Part shown: in pieces, positions 46,066-53,446 of the stretch | How the letters are laid out: each line of letters begins with the position of its first letter | How positions within the stretch are numbered: the first letter of the stretch is position 1 | Assembly: GCA_030041375.1 (NCBI GenBank) | Contig: JASHOA010000063.1 | Coordinates: 31,814 to 95,813 of the forward strand | Source of the DNA: Acetobacteraceae bacterium | GTDB taxonomy: Bacteria > Pseudomonadota > Alphaproteobacteria > Acetobacterales > Acetobacteraceae | DNA: 64,000 nt | Direction: 5' to 3' | Position numbers and translations under genes: made by a program | Notes under the pieces: generated by a model | What the model was told of the DNA's origin: nothing | Databases searched by the model: none | Seen by the model: only the letters and a program-made list of their open reading frames with translations

Positions 46066-46938
46066 TCACTCCTTCACCGCACCGGTCAGGCTGGAAACAT
46101 AATATTCCGCAAACAGCGAATAGAACAGGGCCACCGGCACCGAGCCGAGCAGCGCGCCAGCCATCAGTGCTCCCCACTGATAAACGTCGCCGGTCACCAA
46201 CTCGGTGAGTACCGCCACCGGTACGGTCTTGTTGCCGGTGGACTGGATGAAGGCGAGCGCATAGATGAATTCGTTCCACGAGAGGGTGAAGGCAAAGATC
46301 CCCGCCGAGATCAGTCCCGGCACCGAGAGCGGCAGCACGATCCGGCGCAGAATCTGCCACCGGGATGCGCCGTCGATCAGCGCACACTCTTCGAGTTCAT
46401 ACGGAATCGACTTGAAGTAGCCGATCAGGAGCCAGGTACAGAACGGAATGAGGAAGGTCGGGTAAGTGAGGATCAGCGAGATCGGACTGTTGTAGAGACC
46501 GAATTGCACCACCATCGTCGCCAGCGGAATGAAAAGGATCGTCGGCGGCACCAGGTACGCGAGGTAGATCGCCAGTGCTACATGGGTCGAGCCGCTGAAA
46601 CGCAGCCGCTCGATCGCATAGGCGGCCAGCACGCTGCAGAAGATCGAAAGAATGGTCGTGCCGACCGCAACCGAGATCGTGATCAGCATCCAGCGCGGGA
46701 ACTGCGTATGAAACAGCAGCACGTTGAAATTGTGCAGTGTCGGCGAGCTGATCCAGAACGGGCTGTGATGCGCGTAGTCCTCCATCTCCGAGTCCGGCTT
46801 GAACGCCGTGATCGTCATCCAGTAGAAGGGGAACAGCAGCACGATCACGAACAGCGCCAGCGGTACATAGACCGTCACCACCCGCCTGGCGCGCGAATCC
46901 CAGGAGAGCAGTTCGTCGCCTGCCGCCGCCTCACTCAT
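46066..46938 (-). CDS. Carbohydrate ABC transporter permease (MalG type)
   Basis: A 290-residue inner-membrane permease with six predicted helices. The EAA loop reads EECALIDGASRWQILRRIVLPLSVPGLISAG in parts and contacts the ATPase. The N-terminus is hydrophilic, followed by VVTVYVPLALFVIVLLFPF as first helix. It overlaps the end of the partner permease (46931) by eight bases. It works with the MalF-type permease, the binding protein and the MalK-type ATPase at 51034, which is separated from them by the P450 cassette. Confidence 0.9.
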   Translation of the reverse strand: MSEAAAGDELLSWDSRARRVVTVYVPLALFVIVLLFPFYWMTITAFKPDSEMEDYAHHSPFWISSPTLHNFNVLLFHTQFPRWMLITISVAVGTTILSIFCSVLAAYAIERLRFSGSTHVALAIYLAYLVPPTILFIPLATMVVQFGLYNSPISLILTYPTFLIPFCTWLLIGYFKSIPYELEECALIDGASRWQILRRIVLPLSVPGLISAGIFAFTLSWNEFIYALAFIQSTGNKTVPVAVLTELVTGDVYQWGALMAGALLGSVPVALFYSLFAEYYVSSLTGAVKE

Positions 46939-47899
46939 TGGCCGGGCCCTGCTGCCATTTGCGCCGCGCCAGGCCGAAATAGTTGATCGCGGTGAGCGCC
47001 ACCAGGAACGGAATCATGGCAACCGCGATCGCCGCACCTTGTCCAAGCTCCGAGCCCGGGATGGCGACCTGGTAGGCAAGGGTCGCCATGATCTGCGTCG
47101 TATTGAACGGCCCGCCATCCGTGATCGCGTAGACGAGCTGGAAGTCCGAGAAGGTGAAGAGCGTCGAAAGCGTCAGTGCCACCGAGAGAATCGGCAGCAG
47201 CAGCGGCACGGTGATGAAGCGGAAGCGCTGCCAGGAACTCGCCCCGTCCAGCAGCGCCGCCTCGTAGAGCGAGGGCGGAATCGTCTGCAGGCCCGCCAGC
47301 GTGATGATGGCAACGAACGGGATACCGCGCCACGTATTGGCCACCACGAGCGACCAGCGTGCCGGCCAGGCCGAGCCGAGGAAATTGATGTAGGTCGAGC
47401 GGAGATGCAGGACGTTCACGAGGATATAGGAGATGATCGAAAACTGCGGCGAGTACATCCACCACCAGACGATCGCCGACAGCACGGTCGGCACGATCCA
47501 GGGCAGCAGCACGATGGCCCTGAGAAACGATTTGAACGGCAGATGGTGGTTGAGCAGCAGCGCGAGCCAGAGCCCCAGCCCGAATTTTCCGACCGTCGCC
47601 GCCGCCGTGTAGAAGATCGTATTGAAAACGGAAAGCTGGAATACCGGGTCGCTGAGGACGGAGATGAAGTTGGCCAGCCCGACGAAATGCCCGCGCTGGC
47701 CGATGGTGGAATTTGTCAGCGCAAGCCAGAAGCCGAGCCCGAGCGGATAGGTCAGGAAGACGACCAGGAGGCCGATCGCGGGCGCGAGGCAGAGCCCGAT
47801 CAGGAACGGCTTGTAGTCGAAGAGGCGCGTGATCCAGCTATCCGGGCGCCGCGCGAGCCTCCAGGTTACGACGGCAGCTTCGGCAGTCGCTGCATCCAT
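46931..47899 (-). CDS. Carbohydrate ABC transporter permease (MalF type)
   Basis: 322 residues from the ATG at 47899, which has AGGAG seven bases ahead; upstream in-frame ATGs lack such a site. Six helices are predicted, the first at FLIGLCLAPAIGLLVVFLTY. The EAA-type loop is near YEAALLDGASSWQRF. It pairs with the MalG-type permease downstream. Gene order binding protein, MalF, MalG is the usual CUT1 arrangement. Substrate unknown; the surrounding enzymes suggest a sugar acid or an aldonate-like compound. Confidence 0.9.
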   Translation of the reverse strand: MDAATAEAAVVTWRLARRPDSWITRLFDYKPFLIGLCLAPAIGLLVVFLTYPLGLGFWLALTNSTIGQRGHFVGLANFISVLSDPVFQLSVFNTIFYTAAATVGKFGLGLWLALLLNHHLPFKSFLRAIVLLPWIVPTVLSAIVWWWMYSPQFSIISYILVNVLHLRSTYINFLGSAWPARWSLVVANTWRGIPFVAIITLAGLQTIPPSLYEAALLDGASSWQRFRFITVPLLLPILSVALTLSTLFTFSDFQLVYAITDGGPFNTTQIMATLAYQVAIPGSELGQGAAIAVAMIPFLVALTAINYFGLARRKWQQGPANE

Positions 47900-47965
47900 G
47901 GCGTCTCCTGCCTCGGCCAGCATCGGATGGGCCGTGGCGCACCTCGGCGCCACGGTCGCACCGGA

Positions 47966-49336
47966 TCAGGCCTTGTAATAGCGCTCCGCCTGCCTGGCCG
48001 CGAACGCCGCCGCATCCTTTGCGCTGGCGTTGCCCGTCGCGACCTTGGCAAACATGTCGACCAGTATGTAGTTGGCGGCGAGGGCGCTCGAATTGGCGCT
48101 GATCGGCCCCTTGTAGCCGTCATAGTAGGGGGTATTCATGCCCTCCTTGTACGCCGCGATCTTCGGATCCCCGTTCCAGAAGGCCATCTCCGAGTACGCT
48201 TTCAGCGGGTTCGACCAGTAGCCGTAGCAATCGGAAAGCCAGGGGCCGTACTGCGGCGCTTCCATCATGAAGCGGATATAGTCCTTGGCCGCATTCGGGA
48301 ATTTGCTGTGCTGGAACAGCATCGCGTTGATGACCAGCGCCGACATCGGCGGATGCCCCTTCGAAAGCCCGTACGGCGGCAGCACGTTGTTGGTATCCGC
48401 CGCGATCTCGTTCAGCCGCTTGTCCTTCGCGTTCTTGAGCACGTAGTAGATCGAGACGCCGTTGAAGGTGAGGCTGATCTCGCCCGCCGCAAACGCCTGG
48501 TTGTTGCTGGCATCGTTCCAGGAGGTGGTGCCCGAGATCAGGTTCGGATACAGCTCCTTGCAGTAGTTGAGTGCATTGATCATCTCCTGCGAATCGATCG
48601 CGACCTTGCCGTGCTCGTCGATCGCATAGGCGCCGTGCGACCACATCAGCCAGTCGGCGTAGCCGTTCGCATCGCCGACCGCGTGACCGAGCGCCCAGCC
48701 CGCGGGATGGCCGATCTTCTTGAGCTTCTGCACGAGTGTCAGGAGTTCGTTGAGGTCGTTCGGAATCGCGTCGTACCCGGCTTCCTTCACCCAGGAAATC
48801 CGGTACACGGCGGGGCCGGTGCCGCCGCCGAGCGGAATGGCGATCCATTGCTTGCCGCCCGAACCCCACTTGGTGCCATAGAGAGTGGCAAGGTCGAACC
48901 AGCCGCCATATTTCGCTCCGAGATACTCGCCGACGTCGGTGAGATCGACCAGCTTGCTCGCGTAGATCTGGGGATCGGCACTCCAGCCGACGATGATATC
49001 GGGCCCGGCGCCGGTGTTGGCGGTGACCGCGGTCTGCGGCCGAAGCTGCTCCCAGCTTATGAAATCGAGTTCGACTTGCACCCCGGTCTGCTCGATGAAC
49101 TTCTTGGTGTTCGCCCGAAACCAAGCCTCGTCCGGGTCGATGAACTTGGCCGGCCGCAGCACCTTCAGCGTCGCTCCCTTCTCGAGCGCGAAGCTCGGCG
49201 GCTTGACATCGGCAACCGGGACTCCGGCCTCCATGGTCGCGGCCAATGCGCCGCGCCCACTCAAGGTCGTCATTCCGAGCGCGCCCGCACCCAGAAGCAG
49301 CGACTGGCGGCGTGTCAGACGATCCATTTCCTGCAT
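47966..49336 (-). CDS. Extracellular solute-binding protein of the CUT1 family
   Basis: A 456-residue family 1 binding protein. The N-terminus DRLTRRQSLLLGAGALGM with ALAATM is a Tat-type signal. The mature part includes QTGVQVELDFISWEQLRPQT, INALNYCKELYPNLISGTTSWNDASNNQAF and the WLSDCYGYWSNP block. GGAGGAGGAG precedes the ATG at 49336; the ATG at 49327 is an alternative. It delivers its ligand to the MalF/MalG permeases downstream. Upstream, the P450 cassette starts 105 bp away. Confidence 0.9.
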   Translation of the reverse strand: MQEMDRLTRRQSLLLGAGALGMTTLSGRGALAATMEAGVPVADVKPPSFALEKGATLKVLRPAKFIDPDEAWFRANTKKFIEQTGVQVELDFISWEQLRPQTAVTANTGAGPDIIVGWSADPQIYASKLVDLTDVGEYLGAKYGGWFDLATLYGTKWGSGGKQWIAIPLGGGTGPAVYRISWVKEAGYDAIPNDLNELLTLVQKLKKIGHPAGWALGHAVGDANGYADWLMWSHGAYAIDEHGKVAIDSQEMINALNYCKELYPNLISGTTSWNDASNNQAFAAGEISLTFNGVSIYYVLKNAKDKRLNEIAADTNNVLPPYGLSKGHPPMSALVINAMLFQHSKFPNAAKDYIRFMMEAPQYGPWLSDCYGYWSNPLKAYSEMAFWNGDPKIAAYKEGMNTPYYDGYKGPISANSSALAANYILVDMFAKVATGNASAKDAAAFAARQAERYYKA

Positions 49337-49440
49337 CTCCTCCTCCAGGCCGTCCTTCCCGAACGTCCATTCGCGGGCAGCCTAAACTTTGTGCGGCCTG
49401 CCGGCAATTCCTGTATCTTTTTTCAGATTCTGCCCATCGA

Positions 49441-49466
49441 TAGTGTCTCAGTTTGAATTTCGGCTC
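49441..49466. repeat. Left terminal inverted repeat of the P450 cassette
   Basis: 26 bp beginning TAGTGTCTCAG. It is an exact reverse complement of 51011-51036; identity stops sharply on the inner side. Confidence 0.9.
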
Positions 49467-49557
49467 AGGGTGGTTTTGCGACGGTCGGCTTCGAGACTGT
49501 CTACTCGATAGCGGACACGAGGTGGGATTGAGCGCCATTGGCGCCGTCGGGATCAGC

Positions 49558-50766
49558 TCAATGGCTTGCCATGACAGGCAGTCGCTCGATGGCCCGGATA
49601 CCCGCTCGAGTGCGCCAGCGAATGCGTGAATCCTCCATCGCCAGCTCCAGATTCGGCCAACGTTCGAACAAGGCTTGTAGCGCGCACCTGGCTTCGATAC
49701 GCGCGAGCTGATGGCCGAGGCAAAAATGAATGCCCGCACCGAAGGCGACGTGCCGGTTAGGTTTTCTCTCGAGATCGAGCTTTTCCGGATGGTCATTCGC
49801 TTGGGGGTCGAAGTTGCCGGCAACCAGCATGGGCATGATTTTCTCGCCCTTCTTCAACCGGACTCCCCCGAGTTCCACGTCCTTGCGCACGAAGCGCGGC
49901 TTGGGGAACTGTACCGGGCAGACGAACCGCAGAAACTCCTCAACGGCGTGGTCGGCACGCGTCCAATCTTCTTGCAGCCAATTGCGTAGTCCGGGGTTAC
50001 GAAGGAACTCGCGGACGGACCCGCTGATGAGGTGTGTCGTGGTTTCGTGGCCTGCGAACAGGAGCAGGAACAGCATCGACACCATCTCGTCGCGGCTGAT
50101 GACCCCTCCTTCCTTTTCGATGCGGACAAGCTCCGCGATCACTCCTGCGCCGCCGCTCTCCCGGGCGGCGTCCAGGCGCCCCTCCATGTAGCGCTTCATG
50201 GCGAACATCTTCGGAATGATGCCGAAGAAGCTGAAGACGCCCTTGAAACGCGTGAAGCCGCTGGCCCAGTTGGTAAACTTCGGTCGGTCAGCAACAGGCA
50301 ACCCGAGAAGCTCGCAGATCACCGAAAGCGGGAGTCGCCGCGCGTAGCGGTCGACGAGATCGGCAGGGGTTCCTTCCGCGAATAGCGCGTCGGCCAGTTC
50401 GCTCGCGAGCGCCATGATGTGCGGCTCCATTTCAAGCACGGCTCGTCGGCGAAACACCTCGTCGACGATGCCCCTCAGGCGGGCGTGGTCCGGCTCGTCG
50501 GCCGACAGCATATTGTTCGAGATCGTACGCACGATTTTTGGCATCCACCACTGAAGCCCGACGACGTCGCCGTCGTCCTTGCGCAGGGTGAAGGTGTCGT
50601 TGTCTCTCAACACCTGATTGGCCATGTCTTGCGTCGTGGTCGTCCAGACCGTTCCGACGAGTGGGAACCGAACCTCGACGACCGCTCCCACCGCCCTCAG
50701 CTTCTCAACCTCGACGGCTGGGTTGCGGAAGTACTCCTGACTGGTGAAATCCGCGTAGAGCGTCAT
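49558..50766 (-). CDS. Cytochrome P450
   Basis: A 402-residue soluble bacterial P450. The I-helix oxygen-activation motif is LLFAGHETTTH near residue 240, the K-helix ExxR is in VEEFLRF, and the heme-ligand loop is FGAGIHFCLGHQLARIEAR with Cys near residue 350. It has no membrane anchor and fits the class of CYPs that act on small hydrophobic molecules with a ferredoxin partner; no ferredoxin or ferredoxin reductase is nearby. It is the only gene of a terminal-inverted-repeat cassette and differs in base composition from the surrounding transport genes. Substrate unknown. Confidence 0.92.
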   Translation of the reverse strand: MTLYADFTSQEYFRNPAVEVEKLRAVGAVVEVRFPLVGTVWTTTTQDMANQVLRDNDTFTLRKDDGDVVGLQWWMPKIVRTISNNMLSADEPDHARLRGIVDEVFRRRAVLEMEPHIMALASELADALFAEGTPADLVDRYARRLPLSVICELLGLPVADRPKFTNWASGFTRFKGVFSFFGIIPKMFAMKRYMEGRLDAARESGGAGVIAELVRIEKEGGVISRDEMVSMLFLLLFAGHETTTHLISGSVREFLRNPGLRNWLQEDWTRADHAVEEFLRFVCPVQFPKPRFVRKDVELGGVRLKKGEKIMPMLVAGNFDPQANDHPEKLDLERKPNRHVAFGAGIHFCLGHQLARIEARCALQALFERWPNLELAMEDSRIRWRTRAGIRAIERLPVMASH

Positions 50767-51010
50767 GGGCGCATCCTACAGGCGGCGTTGGTGTCGTACG
50801 ACATGCGCTCTGCCGACGCCTTGTGCAAGCGTTCGACGACAGGATCGGCCGTCCTTGGGCAGCTCACGCGAAAGCGATCTCGACTATCTGAAGAAGCTTA
50901 ACCTCGGGCCTGCGCTAAGCCCGTTTCGGACGTACCGACGATCATTGTTAGCAAGGGATGTCCGCTGTCGGGGACGGGTACTGCGCCAGCGAGCGACCGG
51001 CTTGGGTCGC

Positions 51011-51036
51011 GAGCCGAAATTCAAACTGAGACACTA
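51011..51036. repeat. Right terminal inverted repeat of the P450 cassette
   Basis: 26 bp, exact reverse complement of 49441-49466. Its outermost three bases supply the TAG stop codon of the MalK gene read on the minus strand. Confidence 0.9.
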
Positions 51037-52101
51037 CCCGCCCATCCCTATCCTTGCCGTACTCTCGGTATCGAACAGATGTACGTGCACGGGATCGGCC
51101 GATATGCGAATGCTTGCGCCCGGTCGCGCGGCAAGCCGCTCGCGCAGCACGCAAACCACCGGCTGGCCGGACACCTGCCCGATCACCTGGGTCTCCGATC
51201 CGGTGGGTTCGACCACCTGCACCTCGAGAGCGAGGCCGTGCTCAGCCAGCGGCAGGTGCTCCGGCCGCACTCCGTAGATCGCCATCCGGCCCGCATGCCG
51301 AGCGGCAAGCTCCTGCCCGAGCGGCCACAGCACACCGTTCTCGGCGCGGAAGCCGCCCGGCTCGACGGCGCCGGCGATGAAATTCATCGCCGGGCTGCCG
51401 ATGAATCCGGCAACAAACAAATTGGCCGGCCGGTCGTAGAGCGCCAAAGGATCGCCGATCTGCTCGACGTGGCCGCCCCGCATGACGACGATCTTGTCGG
51501 CCATGGTCATCGCCTCGATCTGGTCGTGCGTGACATAGACCGTCGTCGTCTTGAGCCGCTGGTGCAGTTCCTTGATTTCGGCGCGCATCTGCACGCGGAG
51601 CTTGGCATCGAGGTTGGAGAGCGGCTCGTCGAACAGGAACACCTTGGGATCGCGCACGATCGCCCGCCCCATCGCCACCCGCTGGCGCTGCCCGCCGGAA
51701 AGCTGGCGGGGATAGCGGTTGAGATAGTCGGCAAGGCCGAGGATCTCCGCCGCCCGCGCCACGCGATGCTCGATCACCTCGGCCGGCGCCTTCGCCAGCC
51801 TGAGCGAGAACGACATGTTGTCGCGCACGGTCATGTGCGGGTAGAGCGCGTAGTTCTGGAACACCATCGCGATGTCCCGCTCTTTCGGCGGCAGGCGGTT
51901 GATGACCTGCCCGTCGATCGCGATCTCGCCGCCGCTGATGTTCTCGAGCCCGGCAATCATCCTGAGCAGCGTCGTCTTGCCGCAGCCGGACGGTCCGACC
52001 AGGACCACGAATGCCCCGTCCTCGATCTCGACATCGACGCCATGGATCACCTCGAGCGGGCCGAAGGACTTGCGCACCCCGCGGATCGAGACCTCGGGCA
52101 T
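51034..52101 (-). CDS. Carbohydrate ABC transporter ATP-binding protein (MalK/UgpC type)
   Basis: A 355-residue ATPase from the ATG opening [14 protein letters not shown]. Walker A is GPSGCGKTT, the signature LSGGQRQR, Walker [13 protein letters not shown], and the switch His in [11 protein letters not shown]. The C-terminal TOBE domain starts near residue 240 ([10 protein letters not shown]). It energises the MalF/MalG permeases 3 kb downstream in the transcription direction. The stop codon (51034-51036) is the outer TAG of the cassette inverted repeat, so the last residues (ARIGMGG) may differ from the original. MalK-type proteins are commonly ~355-370 residues, so any loss is small. Confidence 0.92.
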
Positions 52102-52109
52102 CTTCCGGC

Positions 52110-53285
52110 TCAGCCCTTCGGCGGCCGGGCGCGGACCGCGGCCTCGTTCACCTCGATCCCCCAGCCCGGCCTTTCCGGCAGAACAAGCTCGCCGTGTTCG
52201 ATCACCGGCAGCCCGACATAGAACTCGTCGCGCCACCGCACGCTGTCGATGTCGATCTCCATGATGCGGAAGTTCGGCACCACCGCCGAGAAATGCGCGC
52301 TCATCATGCTGCACAGATGACCATAGAAATTGTGTGGCGCGACATTCATCTCGTAGGCTTCGGCCATGGCCGCGATCTTCACCGATTCGATCATTCCGTT
52401 CCACGGCACGTCGATGATCGCCACGTCCACCGCGTAGGTCTCGAAGTATCGTTTGAACTCGCGCCGCGACGTCAACACTTCGCAGGAGGCAATCGGGCAA
52501 GGCGCGCCGCGCCGGATGAACGCCAGTGCATCGGGGTCGTAGGTATCGAGCTCGAGCCAGCTCAAATGGAACGGCGCCACGGCTTCCGCCACCCGCCGGA
52601 AGCCCTCGGTCTTGAAGTGGAAATTGATATCGAGATGCAATCCGGCCTCCGGCCCGATCGCGTCGCGGAAGGTCTGCAACTGCCGCCGCGCCGCCTCCAG
52701 CACGGCGGGGCTCCAGTTCAGCTCCGGAAAGCCGGGACTCCTGCCGAAGCCCGGATTGTAACTCGCGAAACCGCCCTCGGCCGGCACCAGGATGTTGGTC
52801 TTGAGCGCCCGGAAGCCGCCCCGCTTCACCTCTTCGCCGAGCCGGAACAGGTCGTCATAGGTGCGCAGACCGGGCGTGCCGCACAGCTCGGCGCTGCGCA
52901 CCCGGTAGGTGCCGCAATGCGACCAATAGAGCGGAATTCTGGTCCGGATGGCGCCGCCGAACAGATCGTACATCGGCACCCCGAGGCTCTTCGCCTTGAG
53001 GTCGAGCAATGCGTTCTCGATGGCCGCGATCGCCAGGTGATTGAGCCCACCGCGCGCCGGCACCACCTTGGTGTAGAGCGTCGAAGTGATCAGCCCGATC
53101 CGCCTCGGGTCCTGGCCGATCAGGCTCTTGCCCAGCGTCTCGACCACGTTGCCGAGCCCGGCGGTGCCGAACCCCTCGTTGAACTCGGCCCAGCCGACGA
53201 TCCCATCCGCGGTCGCGATCTTGAGGAACGAGAAATTCCGCCACCCCGCGTCGCAGTGCAGGGTCTCGACGTGGCTGATTTTCAT
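52110..53285 (-). CDS. Mandelate racemase/muconate lactonizing enzyme family protein
   Basis: A 391-residue enolase-superfamily enzyme. After the capping domain (MKISHVETLHCDAGWRNFSF) the barrel shows ALKTNIL (a single Lys-x-Asn where mandelate racemase has Lys-x-Lys), the metal ligands LHLDINFHF (Asp), SWLELD (Glu) and ASCEVLT (Glu), and APHNFYGHL, which probably carries a catalytic histidine. This pattern fits sugar-acid dehydratases of the superfamily better than a racemase. First gene of the minus-strand cluster, 8 bp from malK, so it probably acts on the imported compound. Exact substrate not known. Confidence 0.85.
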   Translation of the reverse strand: MKISHVETLHCDAGWRNFSFLKIATADGIVGWAEFNEGFGTAGLGNVVETLGKSLIGQDPRRIGLITSTLYTKVVPARGGLNHLAIAAIENALLDLKAKSLGVPMYDLFGGAIRTRIPLYWSHCGTYRVRSAELCGTPGLRTYDDLFRLGEEVKRGGFRALKTNILVPAEGGFASYNPGFGRSPGFPELNWSPAVLEAARRQLQTFRDAIGPEAGLHLDINFHFKTEGFRRVAEAVAPFHLSWLELDTYDPDALAFIRRGAPCPIASCEVLTSRREFKRYFETYAVDVAIIDVPWNGMIESVKIAAMAEAYEMNVAPHNFYGHLCSMMSAHFSAVVPNFRIMEIDIDSVRWRDEFYVGLPVIEHGELVLPERPGWGIEVNEAAVRARPPKG

Positions 53286-53446
53286 TCCGTTCCTCCACCC
53301 ATCGGGCGGCATGGGCCGCCCTTTCTTTTCCTGCATGATCCGAAGCACAGCGGCCACGCCGCCGCAAGGTCGCCCGGCCGGGGCGGCCTTGATCGGCCGG
53401 CAGCCATGCCCGATGGTCGCGCATCCGAAGTCACGTGGAGGAAAGG
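53286..53446. promoter_or_regulatory. Divergent promoter region of the catabolic cluster
   Basis: About 160 bp separate the divergent enolase-superfamily and SDR genes and should hold both promoters. No clear -10/-35 pair or operator palindrome was found. Confidence 0.45.

Follow-up and report, generated by a model that had tools for sequence, protein, structure and literature searches.

The 64,000-nucleotide stretch of Acetobacteraceae DNA analyzed here (contig JASHOA010000063.1, positions 31,814 to 95,813; hereafter the window) contains a cytochrome P450 gene that sits in an inserted mobile cassette without a transposase gene, the insertion being evident from an empty site in a genome of the same genus (G235). 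Comparison with related elements makes it quite probable that the P450 is the sole cargo of a mobile insertion cassette (MIC) devoid of a transposase, which was most likely inserted through the trans action of a transposase encoded by a related IS1-like transposon.

A sequence-only reading of the window had described exact 26-bp inverted repeats around a single P450 gene, no transposase and a lowered GC content, and all of this held up. The terminal arms (49441-49466 and 51011-51036), each of 26 bp, are 100% complementary and are the sole matches in the window at up to three mismatches; 100 shuffles gave none. The limits proposed in that reading, 49441 to 51036, are those of the arms, but the full element is larger (49439-51038, 1600 bp), extending two bases outside each arm. 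These limits follow from the duplication offset of related elements, and are adopted because the flanking octamers are then TGCCCATC (49431-49438) and CGCCCATC (51039-51046), i.e. left and right copies of a target-site duplication identical at 7/8 positions. The left terminal inverted repeat (49439-49466, plus strand) consists of GA and TAGTGTCTCAGTTTGAATTTCGGCTC, followed by a subterminal GGGTGG (L-type end). The right one (51011-51038, minus strand), read inward, consists of GG and TAGTGTCTCAGTTTGAATTTCGGCTC, followed by a subterminal CGACCC (R-type end). The only long gene accepted between the arms encodes the P450 (49558-50766, minus strand; 402 amino acids (aa); PF00067, E = 3e-19), with overlapping shorter open reading frames (ORFs) on the other strand taken as spurious. 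A tblastn search with 10 cognate transposases found no match in the element, whose GC content is 0.609 versus 0.656 for the window (1.8% of 1600-bp segments are lower).

The uninterrupted locus that the sequence-only reading had proposed to seek in close relatives is present in G235. Positions 46900-49438 and 51040-53400 of the window align to one G235 contig with 97% identity, a 7-base overlap and no insert, and base-level alignment shows one target copy in an intact transporter locus. In G299, 194 bases separate the two flanks on a single contig; the element is absent there too, and the target is too diverged for alignment. Among the matches listed, none spans the insertion site in G239 or G300, and none covers the P450 part of the query in the other four genomes of the genus sample. 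It is extremely improbable that the P450 was ancestral at this site and lost in G235, with repeats unrelated to transposition. Homologues 91-92% identical do exist in public sequence sets; however, what is missing in G235 is bounded precisely by the repeats, a single target copy being left, the element has a low GC content, the same ends frame unrelated cargo elsewhere, and the P450 occurs in 1 of 337 sampled genomes of the class (E ≤ 1e-110; at most five candidates scored per genome among the matches listed). Neither of the outcomes named beforehand as refuting mobility, a P450 at this site without repeats or a repeat occurring only here, appeared.

The cassette ends belong to a family defined by GGTAGTGTCTCAGTTTGAA and 8-bp duplications, found in 24 of 299 genomes of the order (20-base end, up to one mismatch). 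Eleven sites in the host genome lie within three mismatches of GTGTCTCAGTTTGAATTTC, two of them at the P450 cassette, versus none for a reversed control. Cassettes with other cargo, another expectation of the sequence-only reading, were found both in the host genome and elsewhere. Among the eleven host sites, a second cassette (L162, 4013-5007) carries a methyltransferase gene between more diverged ends, with an 8/8 duplication (CAGCCCAC). They also include L032, a miniature element of 349 bp whose duplication matches at 6/8, and an end adjoining a SnoaL-like gene close to a contig end (L029). Elsewhere, a 21-base query without mismatches retrieved 21 stretches from species genomes, namely of Mesorhizobium, Neorhizobium, Chelativorans, Microvirga, Parvularcula, Rhodospirillaceae, other metagenome-assembled genomes (MAGs) and one Chromatiales MAG.

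The duplications are precisely placed. Among 30 convergent pairs of ends, 18 are flanked by octamers that agree at 7/8 or more (8/8 in 14), placed exactly two bases outside TAGTG. By comparison, 0.09% of 11,272 shifted comparisons reach this level, and moving the right flank by one base in either direction leaves 3/30. Outside this catalogue, L016 has an 8/8 duplication. A partner search at 16 end-bearing loci led back to five pairs already known and gave one new candidate (L009), with nothing convincing at the other ten. The general end also occurs in 101 stretches of viral contigs. Pairing was done on 80 of these, keeping pairs only at 6/8 or better, and 26 contain a pair, all at 8/8; 23 are distinct, L195, L227, L245 and L255 being one insertion seen in four contigs. 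When 19 viral loci with exact convergent ends were picked regardless of duplication, 15 were at 8/8 (13 of 17 distinct, since three of them are a single insertion present in three contigs), and four (L181, L184, L211 and L236) had no duplication at 6/8 or better. The consensus over the exact-end viral-contig ends is GGTAGTGTCTCAGTTTGAAAT.

Full elements with related ends, which the sequence-only reading had also suggested seeking, are present in other genomes. Seven complete transposase-bearing elements were found (L076, L078, L079, L089, L156, L157 and, on an Acidiphilium plasmid, L166). Their transposase is ∼290-330 aa long (364 aa in L078 with the longest start) and encoded in one uninterrupted frame. 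It matches the IS1 profile PF03400 above the gathering score in L041, L079 and L076 and below it in L078 and L089, and NF033558 at 50-67 bits (cut-off 100) in the three transposases tested. Nine transposases are 65-81% identical to a tenth, and D113, D150 and E215 are invariant in all 10; we take these to be the DDE residues. The predicted structure is poor (mean predicted local distance difference test score, pLDDT, of 50). Two ORFs considered as transposases were rejected as spurious, namely a plus-strand ORF in L076, whose real transposase is on the other strand, and an ORF in L082, which has no transposase similarity. Related transposases accompany the variant end GGTAGTGGGTCAG in L148 and, on an M. 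loti plasmid, in L168, and L017 has one general-type and one variant end. Because protein variants and end variants pair (L148, L168 and the copies L147 and L146 in G235/G239), the data suggest that this transposase subgroup and its ends co-evolved. Within the order, the transposase profile matches 26 of 299 genomes, short fragments included. Transposase and ends occur together in 15 genomes, where 2.1 would be expected (p = 1e-12 by the hypergeometric test, with fragments counted and no correction for kinship).

Because related ends frame both transposase-bearing and transposase-free elements, and because transposase and ends co-occur, mobilization in trans appears well supported on comparative grounds. 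As to the claim of the sequence-only reading that the P450 is a mobile trait moved in trans, the insertion itself is borne out by the empty site, and we infer that an IS1-like transposase acted on this cassette. Such a transposase would bind the GGTAGTGTCTCAGTTTGAA core common to both ends, excise or copy the cassette, and insert it via an 8-bp staggered cut. The insertion fell at the extreme 3′ end of malK, with a TAG of the cassette end acting as the stop codon.

The P450 could instead have arrived in a once-autonomous transposon whose transposase gene was deleted later, with no helper in trans, which we consider unlikely. Transposase-bearing members do hold passengers next to the transposase, and when 33 elements were tested by tblastn with the 10 transposases, four had short remnants, i.e. 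were deletion derivatives (L083, L091, L093 and L095), and 10 had a long match. However, the remaining 19, the window cassette and 18 others, have no transposase similarity, and cassettes that hold only cargo have the exact ends in several genera.

Several observations weigh against transposition by an IS1-like helper. The host assembly has no transposase match (none of 21 scored candidates, and no PF03400 match while an Escherichia coli control was positive), and the helper would therefore be elsewhere, lost or unassembled. In the same genus, the transposase copies in G235 and G239 adjoin the variant end GGTAGTGGGTCAG, one end being seen in each. At the strict offset, 12 of the 30 pairs do not reach 7/8. 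Six recover: with a one-base shift, L084 and L093 reach 8/8 and L089, L014 and L025 reach 7/8, and L022 reaches 7/8 once the repeat is aligned with a gap. The other six do not, L018 and L032 staying at 6/8 and L010, L017, L081 and L083 lower. Finally, the P450 cassette has an extended end, ...TTTCGGC, which recurs in Mesorhizobium and others; beside it, CGACCC is commonly present at one end of the element and GGGTGG at the opposite end. A transposase is seen in none of 23 loci with this exact end, nor in L037, which has a near end, and an autonomous element whose ends are identical to it was therefore not found. A 20-base core of the extended end also has no exact match in viral contigs.

These last findings would fit an unseen transposase of another kind that specifically recognizes the extended 27-bp end (CGACCC/GGGTGG), with an outer core common to the IS1-like elements by descent. 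None of the 23 exact-end loci shows an IS1-like transposase, and the extended-end core is missing from viral contigs, in which the general end occurs in 101 stretches. We nevertheless rate this explanation as distinctly unlikely. Although the inner repeat bases differ, the extended end shares its first ∼19 bases, the GG/CC edge and the 8-bp duplication with transposase-bearing elements. In addition, the stretches are at most 8 kb long, and five of the 21 database stretches (L005, L013, L015, L019 and L024) show less than 1 kb of interior for inspection; the short element L010, which is complete, is not counted among them. We considered, and rejected, a rule that cargo is always read from CGACCC towards GGGTGG: the window, L008 and L037 fit, but L016 and L022 contradict it.

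The cassette could also belong to the IS1595 or Tn3 family, which is very improbable. The host has three IS1595 transposase matches, which made IS1595 a candidate helper, but the ∼3-kb loci of these genes have no cassette-like end, and the one clear repeat pair there is GGTCATAGCGTCGG. Moreover, the 8-bp duplication, with its peak at one offset, does not fit Tn3, and transposases between cognate ends match IS1 profiles. The locus with the clear pair (L044) is an insertion sequence in its own right, unrelated to the cassette; its exact inverted repeats, at least 25 bp long, enclose an IS1595-type transposase. IS66, raised by the 8-bp duplication and GTAA-like ends, was dropped once IS1-like transposases had been found between the ends, no IS66-directed search being made. 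Transposition in trans by an IS1-like transposase remains our preferred reading.

At the insertion site, the cassette parts the gene for a MalK-like CUT1 ATPase (51034-52101, minus strand), at whose 3′ end it lies, from downstream ORFs for a CUT1 substrate-binding protein (47966-49336, minus strand) and, after it, permeases (46931-47953 and 46066-46938). The split importer described by the sequence-only reading is therefore present, the names of these genes being assigned by reading. The in-frame stop of MalK is a TAG (51034-51036) within the GGTAG of the cassette's terminal repeat, and the protein ends in ...STARIGMGG, one residue longer than in G235 (...STARIGTG). The P450 has the same orientation as the transporter genes, and its expression would therefore come from upstream read-through; a search of the cassette interior gave no sigma-70-like promoter. 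GC content at third codon positions is 0.77 in the P450 gene, versus 0.85 in the binding-protein gene and 0.87 in the MalK gene.

The best match of the P450 in the PDB is CYP267B1 (E = 2e-60), and vitamin D hydroxylase and PikC are also among the nearest solved structures. It contains FGAGIHFCLG and AGHETT, presumably the heme-loop and I-helix motifs, respectively. The P450 is rare in the sampled genomes; in the phylum, it occurs in eight of 398 (E ≤ 1e-130; again at most five candidates scored per genome among the matches listed), the other seven homologues being 63-68% identical and from one genus; four of their seven loci (L171-L174 of L171-L177) were inspected and have no cassette-type ends. 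Two plasmid records match at E ≤ 1e-80, with ∼40% identity.

Cargo varies widely across the family. Passengers of transposase-bearing elements are Xre/ImmA-IrrE (L079, L089, L168, L231 and L244), P63C (L076, L157 and L235), NYN plus AAA (L078), AAA_21 (L148 and L209) and an SDH protease (L166), and two elements of 1.3-1.4 kb in viral contigs (L192 and L230) hold little beyond the transposase. Transposase-free elements carry a hydrolase-cyclase (L008), a hydrolase (L016), a lipocalin-like protein (L022), LysR plus MFS (L018, duplication 6/8), TacA1 plus GNAT (L025, duplication only with a shift), SEC-C (L084), DUF4238 (L085), ImmA/IrrE (L082), the methyltransferase of L162 and, by record annotation, DUF899 (L037) and an NTF2-like protein with no Pfam match (L040). 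The remaining ones have no Pfam match, are unprofiled or are miniature. The Xre/ImmA-IrrE passenger is often beside the transposase, and is possibly a maintenance module; in those tested, the spr1629-type repressor/antitoxin profile scored below its cut-off. In L009 (176 to ∼1740), an R-type end and a degenerate L-type end enclose a Shedu (SduA) gene; the duplication there is shifted and matches nearly, and this locus is a candidate defense cassette.

Phage-profile queries from viral-contig flanks matched in eight of 10 cases. Five elements with perfect 8-bp duplications (L231, L240, L247, L192 and L230) are on contigs with tail sheath, portal, minor tail, head-tail adaptor or terminase genes, and family members therefore sit in phage genomes; phages likely carry this transposon family. 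A wider picture is possible, which we put forward tentatively: Alphaproteobacteria and some Gammaproteobacteria may share a pool of single-gene, transposase-free cassettes, integron-like but built on transposon ends, in which the 27-bp CGACCC/GGGTGG end type would be cargo-only and driven in trans by phage-riding IS1-like transposons.

If these ends are mobilized in trans, any gene that they enclose turns into a mobile single-gene trait that no transposase marks. Annotation would then miss such genes, and the P450 here indeed looks like a member of a sugar-transport operon. A single mobility signal, searchable by sequence, ties metabolic genes (P450, hydrolases, methyltransferase and transporter) to candidate defense or toxin-antitoxin genes. 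The family also extends passenger-carrying transposons to an IS1-like group with members inside phage genomes.

MICs carry a gene unrelated to transposition, as the P450 is. They are a known kind of element, e.g. MIC231 of IS231, and the P450 cassette behaves like a MIC in the sense of the ISsaga paper (PMC3129680). Its GGTAGTGTCTCAGTTTGAA core is that of the transposase-bearing L076, L078, L079, L156, L157 and L166, there is no transposase inside, the target duplication is 7/8, and the empty site exists in G235. The transposase of IS231 is of the IS4 type, whereas the cognate transposase here is IS1-like, many unrelated cargo genes are found across several genera, and this transposase was not detected in the assembly of the host. 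In the titles and abstract openings surveyed, we found no IS1-family cassette set with such varied cargo, nor the letters of the repeat in print.

The IS1 family makes target duplications of 8-9 bp. Like IS1 (E. coli IS1, L178), the present family has 8-bp duplications. Its transposases match PF03400 and NF033558, partly below the cut-offs, and its ends agree with the two IS1 ends at 12/23 (GGTA.TG.CTC) and 9/23 positions, a partial resemblance. Unlike IS1, which uses a programmed frameshift, its transposase is one uninterrupted frame of ∼300 aa, passenger genes are present, and the NCBIfam scores (50-67 bits) lie below the cut-off of 100. IS1595 "transporter IS" elements reportedly also have passenger genes and 8-bp duplications (attributed to Siguier, 2009), but their transposase is of a different family and the inspected host IS1595 loci have no matching ends. 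Tn3 has its own end type and a 5-bp target duplication. Tn3-derived MICs and Tn3-derived inverted-repeat miniature elements (TIMEs) also place cargo, or miniature elements, between cognate ends (qnrD MIC, PMC3913671; TnXax1, PMC6304161; TIMEs, PMC4133298); in contrast to the elements described here, the cargo listed for them consists of resistance or virulence genes. With integrons, the likeness lies in the cargo and the difference in the boundaries, the target duplications arguing against an integron cassette. Integron gene cassettes are single-gene units with interchangeable cargo, whereas the terminal inverted repeats and target duplications found here mark DDE-type transposition.
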